This document shows positions 5,628 through 22,869 of a DNA stretch of 33,699 nucleotides, one piece after another (the stretch's first letter is position 1; every line of letters begins with the position of its first letter). The stretch lies in assembly GCA_017882325.1 (NCBI GenBank), contig JADGPQ010000008.1:1-33699 (forward strand), in the 5' to 3' direction. The DNA is from Thermoleophilia bacterium. GTDB lineage: Bacteria; Actinomycetota; Thermoleophilia; UBA2241. The notes beneath the pieces were generated by a model. That model saw nothing but the letters and a program-made list of their open reading frames with translations. It made no database searches and had not been told where the DNA came from. A program made the position numbers and the translations under genes.

Positions 5628-5671
5628 ACCGGAGAGTATGCGCCTTGACTAACGCCGGTGGCGCCGGCGGA

Positions 5672-5851
5672 TCACTCGCCGCCCGCCCCGCCGGCCCCGA
5701 TCTGGCGCCGCTGGACTTCCTGCTCGAGCAGCTGCACGTCGCGCTTCAGAGTGTTCACCCGGCGCGCGCTCAGGACGTAGTAGAGCATGAGGACCGCCAG
5801 GATAATAGCGTAGGCGGCGGCGACGAACTTGGCGCCTTCTTCTATTGTCAT
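5672..5851 (-). CDS. CcmD-like small membrane protein
   Basis: A 59-residue reading frame exactly between ccmC and the CcsA/HemX-like gene. It starts MTIEEGAKFVAAAYAIILAV, forming one transmembrane helix at about residues 8-28. A basic SARRVNTLKR turn follows, then a short amphipathic helix (DVQLLEQEVQRRQ) and a Gly-rich end. This matches CcmD, the small protein that holds CcmC, CcmE and CcmAB together during heme export, in size, topology and position. The sequence of CcmD is barely conserved, so the call rests on context and topology. The ATG at 5851 follows the ccmC stop after 4 nt. Confidence 0.72.
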   Translation of the reverse strand: MTIEEGAKFVAAAYAIILAVLMLYYVLSARRVNTLKRDVQLLEQEVQRRQIGAGGAGGE

Positions 5852-5855
5852 CGGG

Positions 5856-6545: not shown

Positions 6546-7207
6546 TCTCCTATGGCGAAGTCGTAGGTGCCGTACGCCGCCACCAAGAAGACGGCATCAA
6601 AGCCTAGCAGGAACAGGACGCGGGCGAGAAGGTCGCCGAACCCGGCGCCCTCCGCGAAAATCAGCGTCGTCGCCCCGGTGGCGGCGATGAGCACCGGCAC
6701 GATGAGCGGCAGGAAGATGATCGGCAGCAGCAGATCGCGCGAGCGCGTGTTCATCGAGATCGTCGCGAGGAGTGTTCCCAACGCACAGATGCCCACGTCG
6801 GCGAGCAGCATGACGATGAGGAACGGTACGAGATCGCCGACGTAGCTTCGCGAGACGAAGAAGAGCGTGAACACGGGCACGGCAACGACCTGGATGATGA
6901 GCAGGAAGACGAGGTTGCCGGCCGTCTTCGCGAGGAAGATCGTCACACGGTCCACCGGGCAGAGCAGCAGACCATCGAGGCAGCGCTCGTCCTTCTCCTG
7001 CGCGAATGAGCGGTTGAGCCCAAGAAGCATGGCGAAGATGAAGGTCACCCACAGCATGCCGCCGGTGAAATACGTGAGGTCCGCGTCTTCCTTGACACTG
7101 AAGGCGTAGTGGAAGATCACCATCGCCAGCAGCACGAAGAGGATCATGCTGATGATCATCTCGCGGGTGCGCAGCTCGCGAATGAGGTCCTTGCGCAGGA
7201 TGGCCAT
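6542..7207 (-). CDS. ccmB: Heme exporter subunit CcmB
   Basis: Permease half of the CcmAB ABC complex, which with CcmC and CcmD releases holo-CcmE. The 221-residue protein begins MAILRKDLIRELRTREMI, the usual cytoplasmic CcmB start with its Arg-Glu-Leu-Arg-Thr motif, then has six hydrophobic helices. It includes GGMLWVTFIFAMLLGLNRSF and EKDERCLDGLLLCPVDR, the coupling-helix region of this family. An alternative GTG at 7225 would add six residues; the ATG at 7207 gives the family's normal length. The stop overlaps the ccmC start. Confidence 0.93.
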   Translation of the reverse strand: MAILRKDLIRELRTREMIISMILFVLLAMVIFHYAFSVKEDADLTYFTGGMLWVTFIFAMLLGLNRSFAQEKDERCLDGLLLCPVDRVTIFLAKTAGNLVFLLIIQVVAVPVFTLFFVSRSYVGDLVPFLIVMLLADVGICALGTLLATISMNTRSRDLLLPIIFLPLIVPVLIAATGATTLIFAEGAGFGDLLARVLFLLGFDAVFLVAAYGTYDFAIGE

Positions 7208-7227
7208 GAACTGCCGCGTTCCCACGC

Positions 7228-7974
7228 TCAGAGCACCGAACCTTCCTGAACGTGCTCGCGGTACACAGCGCTGAACGACTCGGGGTCGACGCCGGCGGCA
7301 CGCTCGTAGACGATGCGGCCGTCCTCGACGATCATGAGGCGAGTACCCCACTCGAGCCCCTTGGCGATGTTGTGCGTGACCATCACGAAGGTGTGCTCGT
7401 CGCGGATCTCGGTCAGCAAGCCGTCGAGGATGTCGACGGCGCGTGGGTCCAGTCCGGAGTGCGGCTCGTCCAGCAGAAGCACACGCGGCCGGTGAAGGAT
7501 GGCGCGCGCGATGGCCAGGCGCTGGCGCATGCCCTTGCTGTAGGTGCGCACGACGTCGTGGCGGCGGTGGCTGAGCTCGAGACGCTCGAGAAGCTCCGTG
7601 ATGCGCGCCTCACGGTCGTCGACGCCGTACATGTCGCCGTAGAAGCGCAGATTCTCTTGCGCCGTAAGATCGAGGTAGAGCATGGGGTTGTGCGAGATGA
7701 GCCCGACGGTGCGGCGCACGGGCATGGGGTCGTCGCGCACGTCGTGGCCGGCGACACGGACCGTGCCGCCGCCGGCCGTGAGCAGGGTGGCGAGCACGCG
7801 CAGCGTGGTCGTCTTGCCGGCGCCGTTGGGGCCGAAGATGCTGAGAAAGCCGCCGCGCTCCAGGCTGAACGAGAGACCCTTCAGCACCTCACGGCGGCCG
7901 AACGTCTTGCGCAAGCCCTCGACTTCGATCTCAAGGGGGGGCGCGCCCTCCTGCCCGTCTGGTGAGTCCGACAC
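7228..7974 (-). CDS. ccmA: Heme exporter ATP-binding protein CcmA
   Basis: ATPase of the CcmAB complex; ATP hydrolysis drives release of heme-loaded CcmE. The 248-residue protein shows Walker A GPNGAGKTTTL near residue 49, ABC signature TYSKGMRQR near 141, Walker B VLLLDEPHSGLDP near 164 and the switch His in VTHNIAKG. At the Q-loop position the sequence is LISHNPMLYLDLT, so the usual Gln is Asn. The GTG at 7974 is preceded by GGAGG with 7 nt spacing, 13 nt after ccmF; the longer upstream open frame has no homology. The order F-A-B-C-D is preserved. Confidence 0.94.
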   Translation of the reverse strand: MSDSPDGQEGAPPLEIEVEGLRKTFGRREVLKGLSFSLERGGFLSIFGPNGAGKTTTLRVLATLLTAGGGTVRVAGHDVRDDPMPVRRTVGLISHNPMLYLDLTAQENLRFYGDMYGVDDREARITELLERLELSHRRHDVVRTYSKGMRQRLAIARAILHRPRVLLLDEPHSGLDPRAVDILDGLLTEIRDEHTFVMVTHNIAKGLEWGTRLMIVEDGRIVYERAAGVDPESFSAVYREHVQEGSVL

Positions 7975-7987
7975 AGGGCGCCCTCCG

Positions 7988-10003
7988 CTAGGCCGTGGCG
8001 CCGTCCGGGCGGGCGACGTCGCCGGTGTCGGCGATCGCCTCCGTGACCCGCGCCTCCTGCTCCTGGGGGCGCGCCTTGGGCCACAGCGACACCGCCGCGC
8101 CCACACACAGCAGGATGGAGCCGATCCAGACCCAGCGGATGAGCGGGAAGATGATCATGCGCAGCGCGATGCTCTTCGACGTGCTGTCGAACGGGTCGTC
8201 GGCGACCACGAAGAGGTCTTCGAACGGCCGTCCGAGGATCACGGCGCGCACCGCCGCCCCGCTCGCCGGATACACGTCGGTGTGCGGCGTCAACGTGCCG
8301 ATCTGCGTGCCACCGCGAGTCACCGCAAACGTCGCGAAGGAGCGCGTCGAGTTCTGCGGACCCGTGTTCCCCGTCATGCCCTTGTAGGCCAGGGTGTAGC
8401 CCGCGATGCTCGCGGTCTCGCCGGCCTTGACCTTGACCAGCGCCGTCGCCTCGTGCTTGTACACGTTGGAGCCGATCAGTCCGGCGACCACGAGGATCAT
8501 CCCGAAGTGCACGAAGTACGCGGCGGTGCGCGTGCGGCTGCCGGTGAAGGCGCGGCCCATGCCGGCCCAGAGGCTCTTGCCGGGGCCGGCCGCGCGCCGC
8601 GCCGAGTGCAGCACGAACTGGATGACGCCGCCCACGGCGAAGCCGCAGACCACGAGGCCAATGAATCCCCAAACGCTGGACTGGAAGCCGAGATACAGCC
8701 AGAGCGGCACCGACAGCACCGCCGTGACCAGCGGCAAGATGATGGTCTTGCGCAGCTCGGAGCCTTCGGTCTTGCGCCAGGCCAACAACGGGCAGATGGC
8801 GATGAGCCCCAGGGTGACGACCCCGAGCGGCTGTGCGATCGCGTTGTAGGTGCTCGGCCCCACGGTCTTGTTCATGGCCAGCGGTACGAACACCGTGCCG
8901 AAGGCTACGGCAACGGCGAACAACGTGAGCAGCAGGTTCGTGAGGTAGTAGAGGAAGTCGCGAGACAGGATCGACTCCACCTGGTCGTGGCTCTCGAAGC
9001 GCCGCCAGCGCCAGGCCATCAGGCCGCTGCTGGCGGCGGCCGTCAGGACGAGGAACCCGGAGAGGATCCAGACCAGCAGCGGGTTCTTCTCGAACGCGTG
9101 GACCGATTGGATCAGGCCGGTCCGCGTGGTCCAGGTGGCGAGGATCGTGAAGAAGAACGTGGCGGCCGCCAAGCCCAGCGCCCAGTGCTTGAACAGGCCC
9201 CGCGACTTGTACAGGGTGAAGGCGTGGAGCAAGGCGGTGGCCGTCAGCCACGGCACGAGCGACGTGTTCTCGACAGGGTCCCAGCCCCAGTAGCCGCCGA
9301 AACTGAGTACTACGTAGGCCCACCAGGCGCCGAGGCCGATACCGAGGGACAGGAAGAGCCAGCCGGCCACGGCCCACTTCTGCGAGAGACTGACCCATTG
9401 CTTGTCCCCCCTGCCGAGGAGCAGGGTGGAGATGGCGAAGGCAAAGGGCACCGACAGACCCACGTACCCGATGAACAGCGCCGGCGGATGCAGCACCATG
9501 GCCGGGTGGAGGAGAAGTGGGTTCAGGCCGAACGGTTGCGTGCCCGGTTCGGCCGCGACGAACGGGTTGGATCCCTTGTTGAGGACCATGAGCGCGGCGA
9601 AGACCCCGCCAACGACGCAAAGCACCATCACGGCGCCGCCGGTGAGGCGCTCGAGCCTGTTCAGGTCGACAAGGGCGATGACCACGGCGACCACGGCGAT
9701 GAGCAGCAGCCAGAGGAGGAACGAGCCCTGCTGCCCCGCCCAGAAGCCCGCGATGCGGTAGAAGGTCGACAGGCTGGCGTCGGAGTTCTCGGCGACGTAG
9801 CCGAAACCGAAATCCTTCTTGAGGAAAGCCTGAAGCAGCACCGCACTGGACACGACGGTGGTCAAGAAGAACGCGTAGACCGCGTAGTAGCCGTTGCGCA
9901 GCAGGTCCTTGCGGTCCCAGCGCATGCCAAGGGCAAGGAAGAGAACGCTCGCCATGGAGAAGACGAGCGCGAGGGCCAGTGCGATGCGACCGAGGGCTAT
10001 CAC
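7988..10003 (-). CDS. ccmF: Cytochrome c heme lyase subunit CcmF
   Basis: Large membrane protein (671 residues, about 14-15 helices) that receives heme from CcmE and attaches it to apocytochrome c. It shows the CcmF signatures FYRIAGFWAGQQGSFLLW near residue 82, NPLLLHPAMVLHPPALFIGY near 160 with its histidines, and the tryptophan-rich loop FGGYWGWDPVENTSLVPWL near 232. Helices resume after a long C-terminal periplasmic domain containing the TDVYPASG segment. No ccmH or ccmG gene accompanies it, so ligation probably relies on CcmF alone, as in System I* organisms. GTG start at 10003, 10 nt after ccmE, with GAGG upstream. Confidence 0.96.
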   Translation of the reverse strand: MIALGRIALALALVFSMASVLFLALGMRWDRKDLLRNGYYAVYAFFLTTVVSSAVLLQAFLKKDFGFGYVAENSDASLSTFYRIAGFWAGQQGSFLLWLLLIAVVAVVIALVDLNRLERLTGGAVMVLCVVGGVFAALMVLNKGSNPFVAAEPGTQPFGLNPLLLHPAMVLHPPALFIGYVGLSVPFAFAISTLLLGRGDKQWVSLSQKWAVAGWLFLSLGIGLGAWWAYVVLSFGGYWGWDPVENTSLVPWLTATALLHAFTLYKSRGLFKHWALGLAAATFFFTILATWTTRTGLIQSVHAFEKNPLLVWILSGFLVLTAAASSGLMAWRWRRFESHDQVESILSRDFLYYLTNLLLTLFAVAVAFGTVFVPLAMNKTVGPSTYNAIAQPLGVVTLGLIAICPLLAWRKTEGSELRKTIILPLVTAVLSVPLWLYLGFQSSVWGFIGLVVCGFAVGGVIQFVLHSARRAAGPGKSLWAGMGRAFTGSRTRTAAYFVHFGMILVVAGLIGSNVYKHEATALVKVKAGETASIAGYTLAYKGMTGNTGPQNSTRSFATFAVTRGGTQIGTLTPHTDVYPASGAAVRAVILGRPFEDLFVVADDPFDSTSKSIALRMIIFPLIRWVWIGSILLCVGAAVSLWPKARPQEQEARVTEAIADTGDVARPDGATA

Positions 10004-10013
10004 AGGCGCAGCC

Positions 10014-10439
10014 TCACTGCGCCGAGGGCGGCGTGGGCGCAGGAGAGGCCTGCCCCTTGTACTTGCTGGGGCACTTGGTCTGGAGCTGGTCGGCGTTGAT
10101 CACCCCGGCGGTGGACGCGTACTTGCCGATGACCACAACGTCGACACCGCTGTTGAACGTGTTCGGCATCTGGCCGCTGTAGGTGACCTTGACGGTCTGC
10201 GACTTGCCGGTGAGGTCCTGGATGGTGAAGTGCACGCCGCTGGAGTCACGGTTGATGGTGCCGTCCAGCACCTTGCCGCCGACCTTGACGTTCTTACCGT
10301 CGTACTGGCCGGTGGTCAGGTCGGAGACCTGACGGTAGTAGGCGCCCTGCTTCTGGATGAGGAACACGACGCCGATCACGAACACCACGACGATCACGCC
10401 GGTGGCGATGAGCAGACGCGTACGGGACTTCTTGTTCAC
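10014..10439 (-). CDS. ccmE: Cytochrome c maturation heme chaperone CcmE, cysteine (CxxxY) type
   Basis: Membrane-anchored heme chaperone of cytochrome c maturation, 141 residues: an N-terminal transmembrane helix (about 8-28), then an OB-fold periplasmic domain (VKVGGKVLDGTI, VHFTIQDLTG, VKVTYSGQMPNTF, VVVIGKY). The covalent heme-binding site, HxxxY in the classical protein, here reads KCPSKY, with Cys123 and Tyr127. This is the CxxxY variant known from Desulfovibrio and archaea (System I*). A Pro/Ala-rich tail follows. GTG start at 10439 with a GGGGG-type ribosome site. It is the first gene of the long ccm-hem operon. Confidence 0.94.
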   Translation of the reverse strand: MNKKSRTRLLIATGVIVVVFVIGVVFLIQKQGAYYRQVSDLTTGQYDGKNVKVGGKVLDGTINRDSSGVHFTIQDLTGKSQTVKVTYSGQMPNTFNSGVDVVVIGKYASTAGVINADQLQTKCPSKYKGQASPAPTPPSAQ

Positions 10440-11260: not shown

Positions 11261-12229
11261 TCAGCCCTCGGGCACGACCGGCGTTTCGGGCACGGCGCAG
11301 TCGCCACCCAGGTCGAGCAGCTTCTCCACCGCGTGCGGGAGCGCCGGCGCGATCATCGCGAGCTGCTCACGGCAGGCGCGCGGGCTGCCGGGCATGTTGA
11401 TGATCAGCGACCTGCCGCGGATACCGCTGACGGCGCGCGAGAGCATCGCGTGCGGCGTCGTGGCGGCCGACCCGGCGCGCATCGCTTCGGCGAAGCCCGG
11501 CGCCTGACGCTCGAGCACTTCGAGCGTGGCCTCCGGCGTCACGTCGCGCGTGGTCATTCCGGTCCCGCCCGTGGAAAGGATGAGGTTGACCTTCGTCTCG
11601 TCGGCCCAGCGTCGCATCTCGGCCGCGATCCGCTCCCGTTCGTCGGGCACGGTGGCGCGCTCCACGGACGCGACGCCCAAGGCGCGCAGCGCCTCTTCGA
11701 GGGCGTCGCCGCTCGTGTCGTCGCGCTCTCCGCGCGACCCCTTGTCACTCACGGTGAGCACGCCGGCCACGATGAGGCTTTGCTTGAGCAGCACGATGCC
11801 GTGCCCGGGCACGATCTCCCCGCCCTCGATGACGCGCGCGAAGATGCCCTCGCGCGGCATCACGCAGTCGCCCGCCTGATGGAAGATGGCGCAGCGGTCG
11901 TGGCACACCTTGCCGATCTGCGTGACCTCGAGGAGGCACTCGCCAGCGTACATGCGCGCGCCGACGGGAAGCTCGTAGACCACGAGGCCCTCGGTGGTGA
12001 TGTTCTCGCCGAAGGCGCCCGGTTCTACTGTGGGGCACGCGGCCTTCATCTTGGCGATGCTCTCGTTGCCCAGCAGGCTCACCTGGCGGTGCCACGGGCC
12101 AGCGTGCGCGTCGCCCTCGACGCCGTGCTCGACCACCAGGGTGATCGACTCCACAGGCTCCTTGCGCACGCCCTTCTCGGCGGCGACGTTGACCGACACG
12201 ATGCGGCCGTCGACGGTGTGCTGACTCAC
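11261..12229 (-). CDS. MOSC domain - MogA/MoaB fusion protein (molybdenum cofactor)
   Basis: 322-residue two-domain protein. Residues 1-150 are a MOSC domain: [24 protein letters not shown] and a Cys-containing [18 protein letters not shown] segment, the position used for sulfur or cofactor handling in this family. Residues about 160-322 are a MogA/MoaB molybdopterin adenylyltransferase domain: [38 protein letters not shown] and [16 protein letters not shown]. MogA-type domains adenylylate molybdopterin before metal insertion; the joined MOSC domain suggests coupling to cofactor delivery or sulfuration, which is inference. The GTG start at 12229 overlaps the moaC stop (GTGA). Confidence 0.9.
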
Positions 12230-12732
12230 TGCTCGCCTCCGCTCGGTCCCACGTCGTCCCGACGCCGCCACGGGCCGCTCCGCCCGCCGCTCTTCTCGAG
12301 CAGGCGCAGGGCCGTGATCTCCATGCCGCGATCGACAGCCTTGCACATGTCGTAGATGGTGAGCGCCGCTACCGACGCGGCCACCAGGGCCTCCATCTCG
12401 ACGCCCGTGCGGCCGCGCAGTCGTGCCTCGGCGACGACGCGCAGGCCGGGCAGCGCGCCGTCCGGCTCGATCTCCACGGCCACCGAGGTGAGGTTGAGCT
12501 GATGACAAAGGGGGATGAGCTCGTGTGTGCGCTTGGCCGCCATGATGCCGGCCAGACGGGCGACGGCGATGACGTCGCCCTTGGGCGCCGCCTCGTCCCG
12601 GATCATGGCGAGCGTGGCCGGCGCCATGACGACCCGCGCCTCGGCGCGCGCCACGCGCTCCGTCTCGTCCTTGCCGCCCACGTCCACCATGCGCGCGCGA
12701 CCGCGCGCGTCCAGGTGGCTGAGCTCGCTCAT
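12226..12732 (-). CDS. moaC: Cyclic pyranopterin monophosphate synthase
   Basis: Converts the MoaA product 3',8-cyclo-GTP into cyclic pyranopterin monophosphate, step two of molybdopterin synthesis. The 168-residue protein carries [48 protein letters not shown] with the active-site His/Cys region, [20 protein letters not shown] and [10 protein letters not shown] with the conserved catalytic Lys. Length and motifs are complete; the tail after residue 150 is Arg/Gly-rich and variable. ATG at 12732 follows moaA after 4 nt. Confidence 0.96.
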
Positions 12733-12736
12733 CGCG

Positions 12737-13702
12737 TCACCCGCCGATCTCGGACATCGCGCGCTGGTTGGCGCGCTGTTCGCGGCAGCGGTCGAAGCTC
12801 TTGCCCGACACCGCTGCGCGGATCGCGTCGCGCAGCTCGTCAGGTCGGGCGATGAGCGGCCGGATGGCGACCTCATCGCCCGAGAAGAGGCAGGTGCGCA
12901 GACGGCCGTCCGCGGTAAGACGAAGGCGGTTGCAGCTCTCGCAGAAGTGCTCGGAGACGCCGGCGATGAAACCGATGGTGCCCAGCGCCCCCGGCGCGTG
13001 CCAGTACTGCGCCGGACCGTGGCCATACGGGCCCTCGTGCGGCACCAGCTCGTGACGGTCTTTGAGAAGCTGAAGGATCTCGGCGGCCGGCACGAGGCGG
13101 CCCTGCTCGCCCAGCCGCCGGTCGAGCGGCATGAACTCGATGAAGCGCACGTGCACCTCGCGCTCGCGCGTGAGGGCGACGAAGGCGTCGAGCTCGTCCT
13201 CCACGCCTTCGAGCAGAAGCGCGTTGACCTTGACCGGCGAGAACCCCGCGTCGAAGGCCGCGTCGAGGCCGGCAAGCGCGTCGGCGAGCCGGCCCCCGCG
13301 GCTGAGCCGCGCGAAACGCTCCGGGTCAAGGCTGTCGAGGCTGATGTTGACCCGCCGTAGCCCGGCGCGGCGCAGATCGGCCGCGTACCTGGGCAGCAGC
13401 ACGCCGTTGGTGGTGAGCGAGATGTCGTGGATGCCGCTCGTGCGGCCGAGCATGCCGACGAAGTCGACGCAGCCGTGCCTCACGAGCGGCTCCCCGCCGG
13501 TGATGCGCACCTTGCTGATGCCGCATCCGGCCGCCACGCGCGCGAACGCCGCCAGCTCCTCGTAGCTGAGGATGTCGTCGTGAGAGCGTGCCGGCACGCC
13601 TTCGGCGGGCATGCAGTACGTGCATCGCAAGTTACAGCGGTCGGTGACCGAAAGGCGAAGGTAGTCGACCCTGCCCTGCGTCATGTCGGGGATGGCGTTC
13701 AC
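12737..13702 (-). CDS. moaA: GTP 3',8-cyclase (radical SAM)
   Basis: Radical SAM enzyme that starts molybdopterin/tungstopterin synthesis from GTP. It shows the N-terminal cluster CNLRCTYC (Cys23, 27, 30), [18 protein letters not shown], the C-terminal [4Fe-4S] site [21 protein letters not shown] region (about residue 250-270) and the C-terminal Gly-Gly required for activity (ends SEIGG). I prefer the GTG at 13702 over the in-frame ATG at 13726: a GGAG lies 5 nt upstream of the GTG, and the promoter -10 box (TACACT, 13717-13712) lies between the two, so the ATG would not be transcribed from it. First of the moaA-moaC-MOSC/MogA run. Confidence 0.95.
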
Positions 13703-13711
13703 GAGGGCTCC

Positions 13712-13740
13712 AGTGTAGCGGGCCATCCCCGCGGCGTCAC
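13712..13740 (-). promoter_or_regulatory. Promoter of moaA (near-leaderless)
   Basis: Minus strand: -35-like GTGACG (13740-13735), 17-nt spacer, -10 TACACT (13717-13712), then only 9 nt to the moaA GTG. Transcription should begin within a few bases of the start codon. The -35 overlaps the stop codon of mop. Confidence 0.55.
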
Positions 13741-14056: not shown

Positions 14057-14086
14057 TTGACCGGTGCGCGCCGTTTCCGATATCCT
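14057..14086 (+). promoter_or_regulatory. Promoter of the tup operon
   Basis: -35 TTGACC (14057-14062) and -10 GATATC or TATCCT (14079-14084 or 14081-14086), spacing 16 or 18 nt. The predicted transcription start falls just before the first stem of the leader RNA at 14096. The 412-bp gap between mop and tupA holds this promoter, the leader RNA and its downstream hairpins, and no gene. Confidence 0.65.
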
Positions 14087-14095
14087 CGGCGGCGT

Positions 14096-14197
14096 CTCTT
14101 CGAGCGCTTGAGTCCTAAGGGCACGTACAGGCCTATGGAGCTTGCGCCGGCAGGGTACAGCGGGAAACCGCCGTGTCTCCCAGGGTGGAAAGAAGAG
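14096..14197 (+). ncRNA. Structured leader RNA, probable Moco/Tuco-type riboswitch (copy A)
   Basis: Folds into a closed multi-stem element. P1 is CTCTT (14096-14100) with AAGAG (14193-14197). P2 is an imperfect helix enclosing the conserved TCC...CTATGGA. A GAAA-capped hairpin AGCGG-GAAA-CCGC is followed by TCTCCCAG and GTGGAAAG. Copy B (18946-19042, minus) shares CTATGGA, GCCGGCAGGG, GCGGGAAACCGCCG, CTCCCAG and GGAAAG in the same order, while P1 covaries (TCTCC with GGAGA). The layout and its place before a tungstate importer best fit the molybdenum/tungsten cofactor riboswitch class, recalled from memory and not searched. It lacks the core motifs of c-di-GMP, cobalamin and TPP switches. 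A regulated leader is near certain; the ligand is inference. Confidence 0.65.
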
Positions 14198-14203
14198 CTT
14201 ACG

Positions 14204-14235
14204 AGCGAGCTCCGTCCGCCTGCGATGAGCTCGCT
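14204..14235 (+). promoter_or_regulatory. Expression-platform hairpin of the tup leader
   Basis: Perfect 9-bp stem AGCGAGCTC (14204-14212) with GAGCTCGCT (14227-14235), 14-nt loop, beginning 6 nt after the leader RNA closes. The CTTCT at 14234-14238 can alternatively pair with AGAAG in the P1 3' strand (14191-14195), giving a plausible switch between P1 and this hairpin. A second, smaller GGGC/GCCC hairpin follows near 14250-14263. No T tract, so the mode of control is open. Confidence 0.45.
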
Positions 14236-14353
14236 TCTGCGCGCTCTGAGCGGGCATTCCGCCCACGGACGCGCGTCACCGACCGCCCTGCCACCACCCG
14301 TCAGCGACGACGGCGCACGAAGGGCTGTCCATAGGGCAAACGTGGAGGGAAGC

Positions 14354-15301
14354 ATGTTCTACAATCGACCAAAGACCATCGCGCGCCGCGGCCTGCTCGT
14401 GCTCGCGATCGTGGCCCTCGCCGCGGCGGCGATCGTCGGCACCAGCCTCGCGGGCGGCAGCGGCCGTGCCGCTGGCAAAGCGGCACCCGACAACGCCACG
14501 CTCGCCCTGTACAGCACGACCAGCGTGCGCGACTCCGGCCTCATGCAGAACGTCGTGCTCCCGGCGTACAACGCGGCCCACCCCGGCATCACCGTGAAGC
14601 CCATCTACGTGGGCTCGGGCCAGGCCATCCAGGCGGCTCGCGACGGGCTGGCCGACGTGATCATCGTGCACTCCCCAGCCGACGAGAAACAGCTGCTGAC
14701 CGACGGCGTGGCCACATTGCGCCTGCCGTTCGCCTACAACTACTTCACCATCGTCGGGCCAAGGAGCGACCCCGCCAACGTCGCTACCGCCACGACCGCG
14801 ACCGTCGCCTTCAAGCGGATCGCCGCTTACGGCAGGACGCTCGCCGCCGGCAAGGTCGCCTTCGTTTCCCGCGGCGACGCCTCCGGCACCAACAAGAAGG
14901 AGCTGCAGCTCTGGTTCGCCGCCAAGGTGACGAAGGACGCAACGGTCGCCCCCACCGGCGCCTGGTACATCACCGCCGCCGGCGGCATGCTCCAGTGCCT
15001 CCAGGTCGCCGCCGAGAAGAGGGCCTACACGCTCACCGACACGGCAACCTGGCTCACGAATCGCGACAACCTGCGGCCCCTCTACCGCAAGCTCACCAAG
15101 AAGGCCGACCTCAAGAACCAGTACTCCGTGCTGCTCCTGAACCAGGCCGTGCACGATCAGGTCGCCTCGACGGGCGCCGAGTGGATGGCGGCCTGGCTCG
15201 TGAGCTACCGCGGCCAGAAGAAGATCGGCGCCTACGGCAAGGCGACGTTCGGCGAGCCGCTGTTCTTCCCCAACGCGTTCACCGTCGCAAACAAGTTCTG
15301 A
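14354..15301 (+). CDS. tupA: Tungstate-type ABC transporter substrate-binding protein
   Basis: 315-residue extracytoplasmic binding protein. A signal peptide covers about residues 1-35 (RRGLLVLAIVALAAAAIVG), with twin arginines. The mature part carries the TupA family pattern: YSTTSVRDSGLMQNVVLP, VGSGQAIQAARDGLADVIIV, HSPADEKQLLTDG, NYFTIVGPRSDPA, FVSRGDASGTNKKELQLW, ITAAGGMLQCLQVAAEKRAY and TLTDTATWL. The TTS, SRGDxSGT and HSPA elements form the oxyanion site in TupA/WtpA-like proteins. Tungstate is favoured over molybdate from the TupA-type sequence, but selectivity cannot be proved here. ATG at 14354 with GGAGG 5 nt upstream. The protein is cysteine-poor and has no lipobox, so it is probably a secreted or N-terminally tethered form. 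Confidence 0.92.
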   Translation: MFYNRPKTIARRGLLVLAIVALAAAAIVGTSLAGGSGRAAGKAAPDNATLALYSTTSVRDSGLMQNVVLPAYNAAHPGITVKPIYVGSGQAIQAARDGLADVIIVHSPADEKQLLTDGVATLRLPFAYNYFTIVGPRSDPANVATATTATVAFKRIAAYGRTLAAGKVAFVSRGDASGTNKKELQLWFAAKVTKDATVAPTGAWYITAAGGMLQCLQVAAEKRAYTLTDTATWLTNRDNLRPLYRKLTKKADLKNQYSVLLLNQAVHDQVASTGAEWMAAWLVSYRGQKKIGAYGKATFGEPLFFPNAFTVANKF

Positions 15302-15362
15302 GCCGCGGCTCCGGCGGCGGCGTGTGAAAGCCGTTTGGTAAGCTGACGCCGGCGTGACGATG

Positions 15363-15400
15363 CGGGGCGGCGAGCGCTCTGTCGAGCGCTCGCCGCCCCG
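15363..15400 (+). terminator. Perfect 17-bp hairpin between tupA and tupB (attenuator or 3' stabiliser)
   Basis: Arms CGGGGCGGCGAGCGCTC (15363-15379) and its exact complement (15384-15400), loop TGTC. No T tract follows. Its place after the binding-protein gene suggests partial termination or protection of the tupA message, giving more TupA than TupB/TupC. A TAAGCT box near 15338 could add an internal promoter. Confidence 0.6.
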
Positions 15401-15443
15401 CCGTCGTACCTGGCGGGCGTTCTCGGCCTCAGGAGGATCCGCG

Positions 15444-16148
15444 ATGAACTTCATACTCCAAGGCTTCTACGAGGCCATGCGCCTCCTGTTCACCGGAGAC
15501 TCCGCCACGTATGAGATCGCCCTTCGCTCCCTGGAGGTCTCGGCGGTCGCACTGGCCGTGTCGCTCGTGCTCGGGGTGCCGGCGGGCACGGCCATCGCTC
15601 TCGCGCATTTCCCCGGCCGGCGCTTGGTGGTCGCAGTGATCAATACGGGCATGGGGGTACCGCCGGTCGTGGTTGGTCTCATCGTGGCCCTGTTCCTTTG
15701 GCGGACGGGACCGTTGGGATCCCTGGGCCTGATGTACACGCTTCAGGCGATGATCATCGCCCAGGTACTCATCGCGCTGCCCATCGTCGCCGGTCTGTCG
15801 CTGGCGGCGCTGCAGCAGCTCGACCAGGGGTTCCGGCTGCAGATCATGGCGCTCGGGGCCGGCCGCTGGCGCACCTTCCTGCTGCTCATCCGTGAGATCA
15901 GGGTGCCGCTGATGGCTGCTGTGATGGCCGCCTTCGGCGGTGTGATCTCAGAGGTCGGCGCCGTGCTCATGGTGGGCGGCAACATCGTCGGACAGACGCA
16001 GGTGTTGACCACCGGTATCGTGACCGACGTGAGCATGGGTCTCTTCGCCTCGGCGGTAGCGCTGGCCGTGGTCCTGATGATCCTGTCGTTCACCACCAAC
16101 TACGCCATGACGATCATCCAGCAGCACGGCAGCAAGTCGCGGACATGA
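15444..16148 (+). CDS. tupB: Tungstate-type ABC transporter permease
   Basis: 234-residue membrane permease with five to six helices. Key features are YEIALRSLEVSAVALAVSLV at the N-terminus, TGMGVPPVVVGLIVALFLWR, and the cytoplasmic EAA-type loop LQIMALGAGRWRTFLLLIREIR that docks on the ATPase. FGGVISEVGAVLMVGGNIVG, typical of the TupB/WtpB/ModB branch, is also present. ATG at 15444 has AGGAGG 7 nt upstream; the longer upstream open frame covers the hairpin and is not coding. Its TGA overlaps the tupC ATG (ATGA), so permease and ATPase are translationally coupled. Confidence 0.93.
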   Translation: MNFILQGFYEAMRLLFTGDSATYEIALRSLEVSAVALAVSLVLGVPAGTAIALAHFPGRRLVVAVINTGMGVPPVVVGLIVALFLWRTGPLGSLGLMYTLQAMIIAQVLIALPIVAGLSLAALQQLDQGFRLQIMALGAGRWRTFLLLIREIRVPLMAAVMAAFGGVISEVGAVLMVGGNIVGQTQVLTTGIVTDVSMGLFASAVALAVVLMILSFTTNYAMTIIQQHGSKSRT

Positions 16149-17257
16149 GTGGATCGCCGATCCTCGAGGCCCGCGACCTTACCGTCGTTCGCGGCGGACA
16201 CACGCTCGTCAAGGTCGAGCGGTTCGGCCTGGAGCAAGGTGAGGTGCGCGTGCTCTTCGGCCCCAACGGGGCCGGCAAGACGACGCTGATGCGCGCTCTC
16301 AACGGGCTGGAGAGGGCCGACGGCGAGATCCTCTTCGAGGGCCGTCCCGTGCGAAGCGGCGGCGATCGGCTGCGCCTGCGCCGCCGCACCTCGGCCGTGT
16401 TCCAGCAGGCCTTCCTGCTGGCTACCACGGTGCGCGGTAACGTCGAGAGTGGCCTGCGGCTGCGCGGCGTGCGGGGCGACGATCTGCGACGCCGCACGGA
16501 CGCCGCCCTCGAGATGCTCGCCATCGGGCATCTCGCGGAGCGGCGGCGCGCCGGCCTCTCCGGCGGCGAGGCGCAGCGCGTCAGCATCGCGCGGGCCCTC
16601 GCCGTCGATCCGGCTGTCGTGTTCCTGGACGAGCCCATGGCGTCACTCGACCCGCCGACCCGCCGTGCGCTGCTCTCCGACCTCGAGGTCATTTTTCACC
16701 GTCTTTCCACGGCCGTGCTGTGGGTCACTCATGACACGGAGGAGGCGCTGGCAGTCGCCGACCGCATCACGTTCCTCGCACGAGGAGAAGTTGTCCAGGA
16801 AGGCGCCGCCACCGACGTGTTCAACAACCCGGCCACGCAGGTCGTGGCCGACTATCTCGGACTCGACGTATGGCTGGAGGGTCACGTCGAGGACGCCGCC
16901 AATGGGTCGGCGCGGTTCGTCCTCGACGACGGCACCAGCCTGATCTGCGCGGAGACCGCCCCCGGACCGGCGGTCGCCTGCATCCATCCCGACGACGTGA
17001 TGCTGTTCCTCACCAGGCCGGACTCGAGGGGGACGAGCCTGCGCAACGTCCTCGAGGTGACGGTGAGGCAGGTGCGCGCAGCGGGGCGTTCCCGGCTGGT
17101 GGCGCTAGACTGGCAGGAGCAGCGCATCGATGCGCTGCTCACCAGGGCGGCTTGTGAGGAGCTCGCTGTCGCCCCCGGTCAGCGAGTGTTCGCGGCGATC
17201 AAGGCTACGGCCATCCGGGTGCTACCGCGTAGTGGAGGAAACGACGATGAAGCCTGA
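16145..17257 (+). CDS. tupC: Tungstate-type ABC transporter ATP-binding protein with C-terminal TOBE domain
   Basis: 370-residue ATPase of the importer. Walker A FGPNGAGKTTLMRAL near residue 38, Q-loop FQQAFLLATTVRGNV near 82, signature LSGGEAQRVSIARALA near 138, Walker B VVFLDEPMASLD near 160 and the switch His in VTHDTEEAL. After about residue 235 comes a regulatory tail with a VACIHPDDVMLF strand and VTVRQVRAAGRSRLVALDW, a TOBE-like fold as in ModC/CysA-type subunits that may sense the oxyanion. The ATG overlaps the tupB stop by four bases. The last 11 nt overlap the following lipoprotein gene, extending the operon. Confidence 0.93.
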   Translation: MSGSPILEARDLTVVRGGHTLVKVERFGLEQGEVRVLFGPNGAGKTTLMRALNGLERADGEILFEGRPVRSGGDRLRLRRRTSAVFQQAFLLATTVRGNVESGLRLRGVRGDDLRRRTDAALEMLAIGHLAERRRAGLSGGEAQRVSIARALAVDPAVVFLDEPMASLDPPTRRALLSDLEVIFHRLSTAVLWVTHDTEEALAVADRITFLARGEVVQEGAATDVFNNPATQVVADYLGLDVWLEGHVEDAANGSARFVLDDGTSLICAETAPGPAVACIHPDDVMLFLTRPDSRGTSLRNVLEVTVRQVRAAGRSRLVALDWQEQRIDALLTRAACEELAVAPGQRVFAAIKATAIRVLPRSGGNDDEA

Positions 17258-17720
17258 CACGAGCGACGGCGTGGCGCCGCGGAGGCGCCGCAGGCCGCTG
17301 CGGGCGCTGGCCGCCGCGAGCCTTCTGGCGTTGCTCGCGGCGGGCTCGCTCGCGGCGTGCTCCGGCAGCCCGGGATCGGGGCCCAAGAACACCGTGGAGC
17401 CGGGGCCCCTGCAGGCCAACGGCCCCATCAGCTGGAGCGAGGCCGGCTCCCGGGTCGGCGAAGTGCTCTCCGTCGAGGGCCCGGTGACGAGCGCGAGCCG
17501 GGACGACAACGGCGGCATGATCCTCAACGTCGGCGGCGACGCGAGTGACCCCAGCCGCTTCGTCGTCGTCATCCCCAAGGCCGCACTGAGAAGATTCCCG
17601 GCCGACCCCGCAAGCCGGTACGTGGGCCAACTCATCGTGGCCACCGGCAGGATCGTCGACCAAGGGGGGACGGCGGCGATGGTGGTCCGCTCACCCCGGC
17701 GCCTCACGACGGGAGAGTAG
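17247..17720 (+). CDS. OB-fold lipoprotein encoded in the tup operon
   Basis: 157-residue predicted lipoprotein. An Arg-rich n-region (RRRRRPLRALAAA), a hydrophobic segment and lipobox SLAAC with Cys near residue 38 predict a membrane-attached extracytoplasmic protein. The mature part (about 62-153) looks like one OB-fold: VGEVLSVEGPVTSAS, GGMILNVGG, RFVVVIPKAALRRF, YVGQLIVATGRIV and TAAMVVRSPRRL. This pattern resembles the nucleic-acid-binding-like OB folds found in secreted thermonuclease-type proteins, but no catalytic residues are seen. ATG at 17247 with GGAGG 8 nt upstream, overlapping tupC by 11 nt, so it is co-translated with the importer. A role in tungstate capture or handling is inference from context only. 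Confidence 0.75.
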   Translation: MKPDTSDGVAPRRRRRPLRALAAASLLALLAAGSLAACSGSPGSGPKNTVEPGPLQANGPISWSEAGSRVGEVLSVEGPVTSASRDDNGGMILNVGGDASDPSRFVVVIPKAALRRFPADPASRYVGQLIVATGRIVDQGGTAAMVVRSPRRLTTGE

Positions 17721-17770: not shown

Positions 17771-18928
17771 TCAGCGACCGAGCGGCCAGAAGGGTCCGAA
17801 CAGCCTCGCCCGCTCGAACTCGTAGCCCGATATCCTGCGCAGCTGAGCGGCCGCGATCAGCCACGGGACAAAGAACATCGCGGCCAGGGCGGCCACCACG
17901 AGGGCGATGCGCCCGATCGGCAGCCGACCGGACCCGCGCGCCGCGGCGGGCATGCTCGCGGATCCGGCGACCGCGGCGTTTCCCGCCGGCTCCAGGGTGA
18001 CACCACTGACGGTCTGCCCGACGTCGACAGGCAGACCGCTGACACTCTGAGGCGCCCCGCTCGGCGCAGAGGCCGGCGGCGAGGGGACCGCCGCGGGCTG
18101 CGCGGCTGTCCGCGTCAAGGCGCTCGCCGCGGACAACGCCGACGAGCCAGCGCCGGAACCGGCGCCGGAGCCTCCGCCCGAGCCGGTGCCGGAACCGGCG
18201 CCAGAGCCTCCGCCCGAGCCGGTGCCGGAACCGGTGCCCGAGCCGCCACCGGAGGCGCTCCCCGATCCGCCGGAGCCCCCGCCTGCAGCGCCTCCAGGCG
18301 CGTCGGGATACCTGTACGTCCCACTCCCCGGCTTGTGCTCGGCCTGCGGCTTGTGGCTCGTGCCCCCGCCGCCGCCCGTCGGGTCTGTCGGCTTGCCGGT
18401 CCAGCGCGCGTACTCGATGACGATGTCGTCGACAGCCGGACTCACCGTGGCGTCGCCGCTCATCATGCTGACCGTGTAGGCAATGGTCCTGCCATGCGTT
18501 CCACGAGGCATGTCGAAGCCGCCGCCGCCCACCGCCGGCAGCCACGCCGCCCCGTCCACGCTGTAGCTGATGAACAGGTTCGTACCGTGCGGCTTGATGG
18601 CGTCCCATGACAGACTGAGGAACTCTTTCTCGAGCGTCGGCCTCCTGAAGTCCAGCGCCTGTGACGAGGCGGCGGCGGTCACCGGCAGGTCGCCTTCGAG
18701 CGGCGTCACCAGGCGAAGCTGCTGGTCGAGTCCGTCACCGACGGTCAGGGCGGGATCGAGAGGCTGTTCGAGTGAGAACGGCGCATCAAGAGTGCCTTCG
18801 AAGAACGTGAGAACAGGGTTCGCGGCCGCGGCCGGCGCAGGAGCAGCCACGGCGAGTAGCAGGCAGCAGGCCGCGACGGCAAGCGTGGCGAGACTGAGCA
18901 TGATCGGACTGCGAGCCAGCGACCGCAT
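17771..18928 (-). CDS. Secreted, C-terminally anchored beta-sandwich-like protein of unknown function
   Basis: 385 residues. A signal peptide covers about 1-36. Residues 37-185 form a compact domain with LDPALTVGDGLDQQLRL, LDFRRPTLEKEFLSLSWDAI, LFISYSVDGAAWLPAVGGG and VDDIVIEYARW; the SYSVDGxxW pattern suggests a carbohydrate-binding or discoidin-like beta-sandwich. A Gly/Ser linker (about 200-265) with 36-bp DNA repeats follows, then a Pro/Ala/Val-rich spacer. A transmembrane helix IALVVAALAAMFFVPWLIAA (about 341-360) is followed by a short basic cytoplasmic tail. I do not recognise the family. It is preceded by leader RNA copy B, tying it to the tungstate importer's regulation. The ATG at 18928 lies 17 nt after that RNA; AAGGAG sits in the RNA's closing stem, so ligand-dependent translation is possible. 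Confidence 0.75.
   Translation of the reverse strand: MRSLARSPIMLSLATLAVAACCLLLAVAAPAPAAAANPVLTFFEGTLDAPFSLEQPLDPALTVGDGLDQQLRLVTPLEGDLPVTAAASSQALDFRRPTLEKEFLSLSWDAIKPHGTNLFISYSVDGAAWLPAVGGGGFDMPRGTHGRTIAYTVSMMSGDATVSPAVDDIVIEYARWTGKPTDPTGGGGGTSHKPQAEHKPGSGTYRYPDAPGGAAGGGSGGSGSASGGGSGTGSGTGSGGGSGAGSGTGSGGGSGAGSGAGSSALSAASALTRTAAQPAAVPSPPASAPSGAPQSVSGLPVDVGQTVSGVTLEPAGNAAVAGSASMPAAARGSGRLPIGRIALVVAALAAMFFVPWLIAAAQLRRISGYEFERARLFGPFWPLGR
18152..18259. repeat. 36-bp tandem repeat coding a Gly-Ser linker
   Basis: About three copies of a 36-bp unit starting at 18152, 18188 and 18224, each beginning GCCGGAACCGG on the plus strand; the third copy is degenerate. It encodes GSGTGSG-type repeats in the secreted protein, so length variation between strains is likely and would change the linker only. 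Confidence 0.8.
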
Positions 18929-18945
18929 CGGTCGGCGCGAGGCGC

Positions 18946-19042
18946 TCTCCTTTCCGCACTGGGAGGCGCGGCGGTTTCCCGCCGAGCCCTGCCGGCCCGG
19001 GTTCCATAGACGGCACGCCCACAGGATTCCCGGACTCGGAGA
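18946..19042 (-). ncRNA. Structured leader RNA, probable Moco/Tuco-type riboswitch (copy B)
   Basis: Minus-strand element about 97 nt long, matching copy A (14096-14197). P1 pairs TCTCC (19042-19038) with GGAGA (18950-18946), against CTCTT/AAGAG in copy A, so the stem is kept while the bases change. P2 pairs CCGGG with CCCGG around the conserved TCC...CTATGGA. The hairpin GGCGG-GAAA-CCGCC is perfect and the CTCCCAG and GGAAAG strings are identical. The P1 3' strand is embedded in AAAGGAGAG, a ribosome-binding-like sequence 17 nt before the ATG at 18928, so P1 formation may hide it. Ligand identity is inferred as for copy A. Confidence 0.65.
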
Positions 19043-19051
19043 TACGCCGGG

Positions 19052-19080
19052 ATTCTACCGCCCCGCCGCGGCGTTCTCCA
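19052..19080 (-). promoter_or_regulatory. Promoter of the riboswitch-controlled secreted protein
   Basis: Minus strand: -35 TGGAGA (19080-19075), 17-nt spacer, -10 TAGAAT (19057-19052). P1 of the leader RNA begins 9 nt after the -10, the same distance as in copy A, so the RNA would start right at the transcript's 5' end. The 420-bp gap 18929-19348 holds the leader RNA, this promoter and the hairpin at 19148; I see nothing else in it. Confidence 0.6.
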
Positions 19081-19348: not shown

Positions 19349-20860
19349 TCACGGGCCGAGCGGCTCGCGCAGGCAGGCGTCGGTGGGCGGTCCTCCGGTC
19401 TGCCAATCCATCTCACGGATCGCGACCATCTTCAACTCTGTCATTTCCCTAATCGCATACTTCAATCCTTCCCGGCCGATGCCGGAACCCTTGATTCCGC
19501 CGTATGGCATGTGATCCACGCGGAACGTGGGCACCTCGTTGATCATCACGCCACCGACCTCGAGGCGCTTGGCGGCGTACAACGCCTTGTTGAGATCGTT
19601 GGTGAACACGCCCGCCTGCAGCCCCATCGTGCTGTCGTTGCTGATGTCGATGGCCTCGCAGAGGTCGCGCGCCTTGAGGATGCTGAGAACGGGGCCGAAC
19701 ACCTCGTTAGCGGACACCTTCATCTCGCGGGTGACGCCTGTAAGGACGGTGGGAAGAAGGCGGCCATCGTCGCGGACGCCGCCTGTCGCCAGCGTGGCGC
19801 CCTGTTCGACCGCCTCCTCGATCCAAGCCTTCACGCGCGCGACCTCACCGTCGTTGATGAGCGTCGCCACGTCGGTCGCCTCGTCGAGTGGGTCGCCGAC
19901 CTTGAGCGCCGCGACCTGCGGCACGAGCATGGCGAGGAACTCGTCGTAGACGGCCGCGTGCACCACGACGCGCTGCACCGAGATGCAGATCTGGCCGGAG
20001 TTGGCGAACCCGCCGGCCACGATGCGCTGCACAGCAAGGTCGAGGTCGGCGTCGTCCTCCACGATGGTCGCCGAGTTGTTGCCCAGCTCGAGGGTCACCA
20101 TCTTCATGCCGGCGTCTCTCGCGATCTGGCGCCCCACCGGCGGGCTGCCGGTGAAGCTCACCATGTTGGTGCGCTCGTCCATCACCAGCTTGTTGCCGAT
20201 CGTGGCCCCGGAGCCCACCACGACCTGCAGGACACCGTCGGGCAGGCCGGCCGCGGCCAGAAACTCCGCCAGCCGCAGCGCGGTGAGCGGGGTGTTGGAG
20301 GCGGGCTTGAGCACCACGGCGTTGCCTCCCGCCAGCGCCGGCGCCACCTTGTGCGCGACGAGGTTGAGCGGGAAGTTGAACGGCGAGATCGCCGCGATGA
20401 CGCCGCGGGGCTCGCGGATGGTCCAGCCAAAGCGGTTCTCGCCGCTGGGGTCGGCGTCCATCTCGATGAGCTCTCCAGCGGTGCGCTTGGCCTCTTCGCT
20501 CGCCCAGCGGAAGGTGGAGGCGCCGCGCTTGGCCTCGGCGCGCGCGTCCTTGAGCGGCTTGCCGCCCTCTGCCGCGATGAGGCGCGCGACCTGCTCTACG
20601 TTGTCCTCGATCAGGTGCGAGGCGCGCTCCAGGATCGCCGCGCGCTTCCAGGCCGGGAACCAGCGATACGCCTCAGCGGCGGCGCGTGCGCGGTCGAGGA
20701 CCTCGTCGATGTCCTCGAGCGTGGCTGTGGGGATCCGCGCGAGCTCGGCACCGTCCCACGGCGCGCGGAGCACCATCGGCTCGCCAGTGCCATACGGCCC
20801 GCGGATCTTCAGCCCCGGCTGAATGAGGTCGCTGACCAGGACCTCAAGGTTCGGCTTCAT
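19349..20860 (-). CDS. NAD(P)-dependent aldehyde dehydrogenase (lactaldehyde/GAPN-like branch)
   Basis: 503-residue aldehyde dehydrogenase oxidising an aldehyde to the acid. Catalytic Cys292 lies in NSGQICISVQR and the general base Glu258 in LELGNNSATIV. Further features are the cofactor-site VIAAISPFNFPLNL, the VVLKPASNTPLTAL lysine motif, FTGSPPVGRQIA, and EVFGPVLSI near the C-terminus. GNNS and GQICIS point to the branch with lactaldehyde, non-phosphorylating GAPDH and related enzymes; substrate cannot be read from sequence. ATG at 20860 with GGAGG 8 nt upstream. It is separated from the next aldehyde dehydrogenase by a strong hairpin, so it probably has its own promoter, perhaps around TATGGA some 70 nt upstream, which is weak. 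Confidence 0.9.
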   Translation of the reverse strand: MKPNLEVLVSDLIQPGLKIRGPYGTGEPMVLRAPWDGAELARIPTATLEDIDEVLDRARAAAEAYRWFPAWKRAAILERASHLIEDNVEQVARLIAAEGGKPLKDARAEAKRGASTFRWASEEAKRTAGELIEMDADPSGENRFGWTIREPRGVIAAISPFNFPLNLVAHKVAPALAGGNAVVLKPASNTPLTALRLAEFLAAAGLPDGVLQVVVGSGATIGNKLVMDERTNMVSFTGSPPVGRQIARDAGMKMVTLELGNNSATIVEDDADLDLAVQRIVAGGFANSGQICISVQRVVVHAAVYDEFLAMLVPQVAALKVGDPLDEATDVATLINDGEVARVKAWIEEAVEQGATLATGGVRDDGRLLPTVLTGVTREMKVSANEVFGPVLSILKARDLCEAIDISNDSTMGLQAGVFTNDLNKALYAAKRLEVGGVMINEVPTFRVDHMPYGGIKGSGIGREGLKYAIREMTELKMVAIREMDWQTGGPPTDACLREPLGP

Positions 20861-20977
20861 GCTGTGTTCCTCCCGGCTCCCATGGATGCGCTGCGAGGCG
20901 CGGTCACGCTTGTGAGGACTCCATACCCGCCGCGGGGGACGGCGGAACGACACGGGAGCTGATCGTAAGGGGGGAGG

Positions 20978-21008
20978 GGGCGCGGCGGCCGGAAGGGCCG
21001 CCGCGCCC
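20978..21008 (-). terminator. Terminator of the second aldehyde dehydrogenase gene
   Basis: Perfect 13-bp stem GGGCGCGGCGGCC / GGCCGCCGCGCCC with a 5-nt loop, starting 10 nt after the stop at 21018. On the minus strand it is followed by a C/T-rich run ending in CCTTACG. It is the best-placed terminator in this block. Confidence 0.65.
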
Positions 21009-21017
21009 GTCATGCGC

Positions 21018-22631
21018 TCAGAGGCCCGGCTGGCAGTTCTCGCAGAACTGCACCCAGGACTCGTCGGTCTTGCTCTCGTCTCCGCGGAAGGGGCGCCGGT
21101 CGCTCAGCGGCACCACCCTGCGATTGCCGGCGACGTTCTTGTCCTTGCCCCGTTGGTACACGCCCATCGGCGCGTCCGTGAGGTCGATGTTGATCTGCTT
21201 GACCTCGGTGTACTCGTCGAGGCCGTAAGTGCCGAGCTCACGCCCCACGCCGCTCTGCTTGTAGCCGCCCCAGGGAGCTTCGCTGTAGGTCGGGTGGTAC
21301 GTGTTGACCCACGTGATGCCGGCGCGCAGCGCCTTGACCACGCGCATGGCCTTGGTGACATCCTTCGTCCAGACGGCGCCCGCGAGGCCGTAGATGGTGT
21401 CGTTGGCGATCTCGACGGCCTGCTGCTCGCCGTCGAACGGGATGACGACCAGCACGGGCCCGAAGATCTCTTCCTGGGCGATGCGCATCTTGTTGTCGAC
21501 GTCCACGAAGATCGTGGGCTCGTAGTAGTAGCCGCGACCCTCGAGGCGATGGCCGCCGGTGGCGAGCGTGGCGCCTTCGTCGCGGCCGATCTGCACGTAC
21601 TTCTCGACGGTCGCCAGCTGCTGCTTGTTCACCAGGGGACCCATCTCGCTGTCCTCGTCGAGCGCCGGACCCACTTTGATCGCCATGGCCCGGCTCACGA
21701 GCTCGCCGACGAAGCGGTCGTAGATGGCGCGATCCACGATGAGGCGCGAGCCCGCCGAACAGACCTCGCCGGTGCCGGCGAAGATGCCGACCAGGGCGCC
21801 GTCGATGGCGGCCTCGAAGTCGGCGTCGGCGAAGACGATGTTGGGGCTCTTGCCGCCCAGCTCGAGGCCGACCTTCTTCACGTTCTCCGCGCCCTGACGC
21901 ATGATGTGCTTGCCGACCTCGACCGAGCCAGTAAACGCCACCATGTCGACGAGCGGCGAGGCGGCGAGGTAGTCACCGATCTCGCCGCCGGGCCCGGTGA
22001 TCACCTGGAAGACGCCCTCCGGGAGGCCGACCTCCTCGAAGATCTTCGCCAGTTCGAGATTGGTCAGCGGGCTGACAGAGGCCGGCTTGAGGATCATCAC
22101 GTTGCCGGCCGCGAGCGACGGCGCGGCCTTCCAGGCGGCCATGAGCATCGGGTAGTTCCACGGCGTGATGCCTACGGTGACGCCGATCGGCTCGCGCACG
22201 ACCATGCTCATCGTGTCGCCGGGCACTTCGAGCGTCTCGCCATGCGCCTCCACGACCAGGCCGGCATAGTAGTCGAACGTGTGGGCCGCGTCGCTCATGT
22301 CTACGATGGCCTCGGAGAAGAGCTTGCCCATCTGCAGGCTCTCGAGGCGCGCCAACTCGTCGGCGCGCTCGCGAATCCGCGTGGCCGCCCGCCGCAGAAG
22401 ATCGCCGCGCTCTACCGCCTTCATCCGCGGCCAGGGACCCTTGTCGAACGCCTCGCGCGCCGCCTTGACGGCCGTCTCCGCGTCGGCGACCGTGGCCTTG
22501 GGTACTCGGGCGATCACCTCTTCGGTGGAGGGGTCGAGGATCTCCGAAGTCGCGCCGTTCGACGCGTCGACCCAGCGACCGCCGATGTACATCTGGTAGG
22601 GGGTCACCTTCGTCTCTTGGACTGCTGCCAT
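21018..22631 (-). CDS. Betaine-aldehyde-dehydrogenase-like enzyme with a C-terminal CxxC extension
   Basis: 537-residue aldehyde dehydrogenase. Catalytic Cys291 is in GTGEVCSAGSRLIV and Glu257 in GLELGGKSPNIVF; VTVGITPWNYPMLMA, MILKPASVSPLTNLE, FTGSVEVGKHI, EEIFGPVLVV and the closing PWGGYKQSGVGREL are all in place. The EVCSAGSR site is closest to betaine/aminoaldehyde dehydrogenases. The usual family length is about 490; here about 45 extra residues after the normal end (from LTDAPMGVYQRGKDK on) finish in FCENCQPGL. This Cys-x-x-Cys tail is unusual and may bind metal or form a disulfide. ATG at 22631 with GAGG 8 nt upstream; a GTG three codons earlier is less likely. Confidence 0.9.
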   Translation of the reverse strand: MAAVQETKVTPYQMYIGGRWVDASNGATSEILDPSTEEVIARVPKATVADAETAVKAAREAFDKGPWPRMKAVERGDLLRRAATRIRERADELARLESLQMGKLFSEAIVDMSDAAHTFDYYAGLVVEAHGETLEVPGDTMSMVVREPIGVTVGITPWNYPMLMAAWKAAPSLAAGNVMILKPASVSPLTNLELAKIFEEVGLPEGVFQVITGPGGEIGDYLAASPLVDMVAFTGSVEVGKHIMRQGAENVKKVGLELGGKSPNIVFADADFEAAIDGALVGIFAGTGEVCSAGSRLIVDRAIYDRFVGELVSRAMAIKVGPALDEDSEMGPLVNKQQLATVEKYVQIGRDEGATLATGGHRLEGRGYYYEPTIFVDVDNKMRIAQEEIFGPVLVVIPFDGEQQAVEIANDTIYGLAGAVWTKDVTKAMRVVKALRAGITWVNTYHPTYSEAPWGGYKQSGVGRELGTYGLDEYTEVKQINIDLTDAPMGVYQRGKDKNVAGNRRVVPLSDRRPFRGDESKTDESWVQFCENCQPGL

Positions 22632-22869
22632 CGTGCTCACCTCTCGTAGGCCCCGGCGACGCACGCCGGAAATGGGAAGGCGCGATGAAAGACGGGCTTG
22701 GTCCCTCCACGCGCCCGCAACGACTCTTGACTCCTTCGTTCCCACCGAGACGTGTCGCATAACACTGCACCCATAGTGATTACGGGCGGAGGCTCGACCA
22801 AACGCGGAGCGAGGTCAGTGTCGCACGCGGAAGCGGCGGCCACCGCGCGGCCGCGCGCTCACGACATCG

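Follow-up and report, generated by a model that had tools for sequence, protein, structure and literature searches.

Two similar elements lie on opposite strands of the window, by which we mean the whole stretch of 33,699 nucleotides analysed, one ahead of genes for a tungstate importer and one ahead of a gene that we call orfB. Are these elements riboswitch leaders, and if so, which cofactor do they sense and which genes do they govern? The window is an entire contig of a 3.0-Mb assembly (92% complete). An Rfam cmscan of all of it returned exactly two matches, both full length and both to Moco RNA (RF01055). The earlier note had taken the two elements for Moco/Tuco riboswitches, and both scored over the gathering score of 36 bits: copy A with 59.1 bits (E-value 6.3e-12 for the whole window) and copy B with 57.7 bits (1.6e-11). 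The features of the locus are as follows.

11261-12508, reverse strand: MOSC-MoaB fusion gene, a neighbour on the divergent side of copy A
12737-13726, reverse strand: moaA (TIGR02666 over cut-off), a neighbour divergent from copy A
14057-14086, forward strand: promoter-like site of copy A, TTGACC-18 nt-TATCCT (1 found versus 0.1 in shuffles)
14086-14211, forward strand: copy A, P3-less Moco RNA (RF01055), core from P1 to P1 at 14096-14197
14205-14234, forward strand: candidate leader hairpin of copy A (arms 14205-14212 and 14227-14234), then UUCU
14354-15301, forward strand: tupA-like tungstate-binding protein gene, with the Shine-Dalgarno (SD) sequence GGAGGG at 14344-14349
15354-16148, forward strand: tupB-like permease gene (NF041773, 7.5e-48; NF038017 over cut-off)
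16145-17257, forward strand: gene for an ATP-binding subunit with TOBE domain
17247-17720, forward strand: small putative lipoprotein gene without Pfam match, fourth in the tup operon
17771-18928, reverse strand: orfB, 385 aa, with a predicted signal sequence, a beta-type domain, a linker rich in Gly and Ser and a membrane anchor at the C-terminus
18931-19053, reverse strand: copy B, P3-less Moco RNA (RF01055), core 19042-18946
19052-19080, reverse strand: promoter-like site of copy B, TGGAGA-17 nt-TAGAAT (1 found versus 0.0 in shuffles)

Elsewhere in the window, a cytochrome c maturation cluster (4800-10439, reverse strand; CcmE, CcmF/NrfE-like, CcmB and assembly proteins) adjoins haem biosynthesis genes.

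Copies A and B form an inverted pair of 66 nt with 82% complementarity. Every sequence block that had been claimed as shared between them was found, with the order kept. The closing stem P1 was said to differ by compensation, and it does so, since CTCTT (14096-14100) with AAGAG (14193-14197) in A and TCTCC (19042-19038) with GGAGA (18950-18946) in B are different sequences that still pair. The proposed change from C-G to U-G proved real and lies at the base of P2 (CG in 17 and UG in 5 sequences of the alignment), and the distance from the -10 box to the start of the core, given as about 9 nt, is 9 nt in both copies. Like the RF01055 type case, E. coli moaA (PMC2408646), A and B have P1, the P2 receptor, P4 with its GAAA loop, and P5. 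Using the tetraloop/receptor definition of that work, we found in A the GAAA tetraloop at 14164-14167 and an intact receptor, CCUAAG (14114-14119) with UAUGG (14134-14138); B keeps the tetraloop (18978-18975) with an altered receptor (CCUGUG/UAUGG). Both copies differ from the type case in having no P3, the positions of which are deleted in the RF01055 alignments, and A differs from the usual RF01055 members in having UU/AA rather than CC/GG at the top of P1. The absence of P3 was linked to the tungsten cofactor (Tuco) by Regulski et al. 2008 (PMC2408646), so A and B belong to the tungsten-cofactor group proposed there; that P3-less RNAs discriminate between tungsten and molybdenum cofactors was put forward in 2008 as a proposal, without demonstration (PMC2408646).

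Is this structure maintained by selection on pairing? We aligned 22 P3-less RNAs from the family of the window and from neighbouring families, and RNAalifold found P1, P2, P4 and P5 without the Rfam structure as input. At 17 of the 31 pairs, at least one sequence had both sides changed; covariation in homologues was thus strong. None of 500 shuffles reached any of five measures, and sliding the partners abolished the signal. P5, with two pairs, varies too little for covariation in this alignment. With these data, A and B are well supported as new members of an established riboswitch class and fall into the subtype proposed for tungsten.

What lies downstream of copy A? The TupA-like protein matched NF041772 with 1.4e-38 and 133 bits, below the NCBI equivalog cut-off of 400, and for this reason we name the gene Tup-like; no genome of the family reaches that cut-off. 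Its closest solved relatives are 5my5, the TupA of D. alaskensis described in PMC5517513, and the tungstate-binding protein 3lr1. The TupA signature consists of a TTTS motif and the conserved H59, R118, T124 and D170 (PMC5517513). The oxyanion site of the TupA-like protein retains H, R, T and D, and STTS stands where TTTS is expected. The protein is 77% identical to TupA of an uncultured Thermoleophilia bacterium. Thus, the claim that copy A controls a tungstate importer stood as far as the Tup-like genes downstream are concerned; the control itself we infer from position. The link between RNA and tup is not general, since we found no Moco RNA at 15 tupA loci of other phyla. Within the family there are eight tupA genes, and a good RNA accompanies only four. 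The tupA leader of the close relative G003 (L134:2543-2668, reverse strand) is a sub-threshold Moco RNA of 25.4 bits and an orthologue of leader A. It shares the U-A rich P1 with A, has GCAA in place of GAAA and has lost the receptor, which indicates that leader A is diverging within the genus; GCAA members without receptor were remarked on in the 2008 paper (PMC2408646).

We then compared P3 state with the metal of the next importer. RF01055 was present in all 15 family genomes examined, as were matches to AFOR_C, of the AOR type, with several in the genome of the window. The AOR type is a tungsten-enzyme family; a literature search brought up no paper that deals with AOR in Thermoleophilia. 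The assembly holds three Moco RNA copies, each with a different downstream gene. The third (C201:3881-4041) has P3, and the gene immediately after it encodes a MOT1 molybdate transporter; the start codon of that gene follows GGAAAGGAGTGAGGG. Across the family, the importers directly downstream of P3-less RNAs were five for tungsten (Tup four times, Wtp once) and one for molybdenum, versus none for tungsten and ten for molybdenum after P3-containing RNAs (Fisher p = 0.0014, relatedness ignored, a value that overstates the weight because the loci are related by descent). The Tup cases are copy A, G010a, G012a and G014b, and the Wtp case (G007) is a wtpA gene just under its cut-offs (NF003196, 252 bits; TIGR03730, 225); in the P3-less operons of G003 and G010, a wtpA that exceeds the TIGR03730 cut-off follows a few genes downstream. 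P3-containing RNAs stand directly before MOT1 in five genomes and before ModA (over cut-off) in five, and also precede molybdopterin-oxidoreductase (PF00384) genes and a mobA/mobB gene. In another family, P3-less RNAs precede tupA in G017, G027 and G052. Exceptions were a P3-less RNA before ModA over its cut-off (G014a) and P3-containing RNAs before tupA (G047) and before a sulphite-oxidase-like gene (G010d). Both RNA types occur within single genomes, before importers of different metals, in G000, G010 and G012. In relatives, therefore, the subtypes sort largely by the metal of the next importer, as was already observed across unrelated phyla in 2008 (PMC2408646). The P3-less group of Syntrophomonas wolfei and others (PMC2408646) likewise has no P3 and occurs in genomes with a tungstate importer and tungsten-enzyme-family genes. 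Unlike in that group, the RNA here stands directly before tupABC, and in the same genome a molybdate transporter gene is preceded by a copy that has P3.

The P3-containing RNAs of the family have features of their own. Where the Rfam model has a single P3, all 15 (L080:3881-4041 and 14 further loci) show two hairpins, of which one is nearly invariant (CCAYGG-AYAGA-CCRTGG) and the other variable and covarying; in a search of 149 genomes of the class, the conserved hairpin was found in this family alone. The two-hairpin RNAs may represent a structural subtype within Moco RNA. In G011 (L062:4998-5477), a gap of about 180 nt separates two P3-containing RNAs of opposite strand, which face divergently toward genes for a molybdopterin oxidoreductase and for MOT1. 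In G010 (L063:5051-6272), a P3-containing and a P3-less RNA share a strand at a distance of about 1 kb, with a sulphite-oxidase-like gene between them, a possible two-metal arrangement.

What, then, does copy B precede? The single gene after it, orfB, runs convergent to the tup operon and starts 3 nt past the Rfam match of B; the start codon is supported by the alignment of the N-terminus with homologues. The protein had neither a Pfam nor an NCBIfam match. Unlike the targets of RF01055, orfB does not belong to the known cofactor genes and has no known connection with the cofactor, and compared with the P3-less group it is an additional kind of target. An AlphaFold model of orfB (mean pLDDT 36.8) was of too low quality to search for related folds and was left unused. 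In G012, the orfB homologue adjoins tupABC in the same convergent order. In G006, it is clustered with a protein that bears a weak resemblance to an ECF S-component and with a small protein that has no Pfam match and reads like a sulphite-oxidase-fold domain. By these associations, orfB is likely to be tungsten- or molybdenum-related and to act outside the cytoplasm; its tie to secreted sulphite-oxidase-fold-like proteins is one of neighbourhood only. Two adjacent aldehyde dehydrogenase genes occupy 19349-22760 of the window (reverse strand), with copy B just after them. The same site after the aldehyde dehydrogenase genes holds a P3-less RNA in G008, G011, G006, G004, G010 and G003, with varying next genes.

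Other P3-less RNAs of the set precede moaA (G011a, G004a) and xanthine-dehydrogenase-family genes (G004b, G013), the latter usually molybdoenzymes. P3-less RNAs also head operons for secreted proteins (G003a, G001b, G010b and probably G006b) that contain PF00174 (Oxidored_molyb) proteins. The first protein of these operons, which has no Pfam match, aligned with the second domain of the PF00174 proteins in hhalign (probability 98.5%, E 2e-15). No cysteine occurs in the stretch of the first proteins examined, which makes it unlikely that they have a classical sulphite-oxidase active site. AlphaFold models of the sulphite-oxidase-like proteins (mean pLDDT 44.1) were set aside for the same reason as that of orfB. 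Secreted proteins with two sulphite-oxidase-fold-like domains lie under P3-less RNAs at L068:6567-9165, L071:1542-3855 and L063:1347-4855; two such proteins carry CAxPGCHGS (CX4CH, possibly haem-binding) in the second domain, and their operons also hold WtpA-type tungstate-binding proteins. In S. wolfei as well, some P3-less members precede sulphite-oxidase-type genes (PMC2408646).

How might the two leaders act? Each promoter-like site is the only one in its region. As in RF01055, where the RNAs are 5' leaders of cofactor or oxyanion-import genes and some members have the SD within P1, copy B has AAAGGAG in P1 as the only SD-like sequence ahead of orfB, which makes a translational platform likely. 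The spacer to the start codon, about 17 nt, is unusually long, and with this reservation B resembles the translational layout that was proposed for E. coli moaA (PMC2408646). In most P3-containing leaders of the family, a start codon closely follows GGAAAGGAG, which is that same translational layout. In copy A, about 156 nt separate P1 from the start codon, which has its own SD (GGAGGG). The leader hairpin of A was no better than shuffled sequence. A two-state switch for A, with P1 and the leader hairpin forming when the aptamer was imposed and neither in the free ensemble, was rejected because shuffled downstream sequence behaved alike (energy gap in 47 of 150, hairpin in 26 of 150). In A, the 3' arm of the aptamer paired with the sequence downstream more strongly than in shuffles (-19.4 versus -14.0, SD 1.9), one test among many; the same pairing in B (-19.1) was no stronger than in shuffles (-21.7). 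Many P3-less leaders carry terminator-like hairpins within about 50 nt (G008a, G009a, G010b, G006b, G003a, G001b, G017, G027 and G052), and in some of them these overlap sequence able to pair with the aptamer's GCGGAAAGG; transcriptional control is therefore likely in those leaders.

Our main reading, to which we give a probability of about 0.72, is that A and B are P3-less Moco riboswitch leaders and that binding of Tuco lowers expression of tupABC (A) and orfB (B); ligand, repression and platforms we infer. Each copy would be the 5' leader of an mRNA, and its predicted aptamer, made of P1, P2 with the tetraloop receptor, P4 with the GAAA tetraloop and a short P5, would most likely bind Tuco when the cofactor is sufficient. 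Bound A would then give less of the importer TupABC, and bound B, probably through the SD-like sequence within P1, less of the surface protein OrfB.

Could A and B instead sense the molybdenum cofactor, or either form, with the loss of P3 reflecting lineage history and leaving the ligand unset? We consider this unlikely. Such a reading would accommodate the exceptions to the sorting (G014a, G047) and the xanthine-dehydrogenase-family targets, and it agrees with the report that E. coli RNA without P3 lost control with its specificity unswitched (PMC2408646), but it sits poorly with the two types standing before importers of different metals within G000, G010 and G012, and with a sorting seen in unrelated phyla in 2008 (PMC2408646). 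Two similar inverted copies within 5 kb might suggest a mobile or dispersed repeat that has no part in regulation; with only three copies in the genome, different next genes, cofactor and metal genes among them, and compensatory changes across genera, we ruled it out as next to impossible.

A further possibility is that A is an active switch and B a recent duplicate or a relict aptamer, the site having swapped genes so that the next gene is not its target. The P3-less RNA keeps its place in several genera while the next gene is moaA, a sulphite-oxidase-like gene, a gene for a TIG protein or orfB; no RNA B turned up ahead of the orfB homologues in G006 and G012 (the G012 contig ends close by), and the long spacer from SD to start would also fit. 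Yet B scores like A, its helices are all kept by compensation, it has its own promoter-like site, and orfB begins, at a start codon backed by homologues, immediately past the Rfam match, so that we regard a relict as rather improbable too. A broader proposal can be made only tentatively: that P3-less RNAs discriminate Tuco from Moco where a cell uses both metals, and that they also govern a hitherto undescribed extracellular system, related to tungsten, of secreted sulphite-oxidase-fold-like proteins and OrfB.

In the literature searched, we found no direct test of the 2008 proposal on P3 and molybdenum versus tungsten. Natural matched pairs occur in this family: a single genome has aptamers with and without P3, each ahead of an importer of the corresponding metal, and these pairs are material for such a test. 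The added interest of the locus thus lies in the side-by-side sorting of P3 and metal and in the surface-protein part of the regulon, where the link with secreted sulphite-oxidase-fold-like proteins and orfB points to functions outside the cell.
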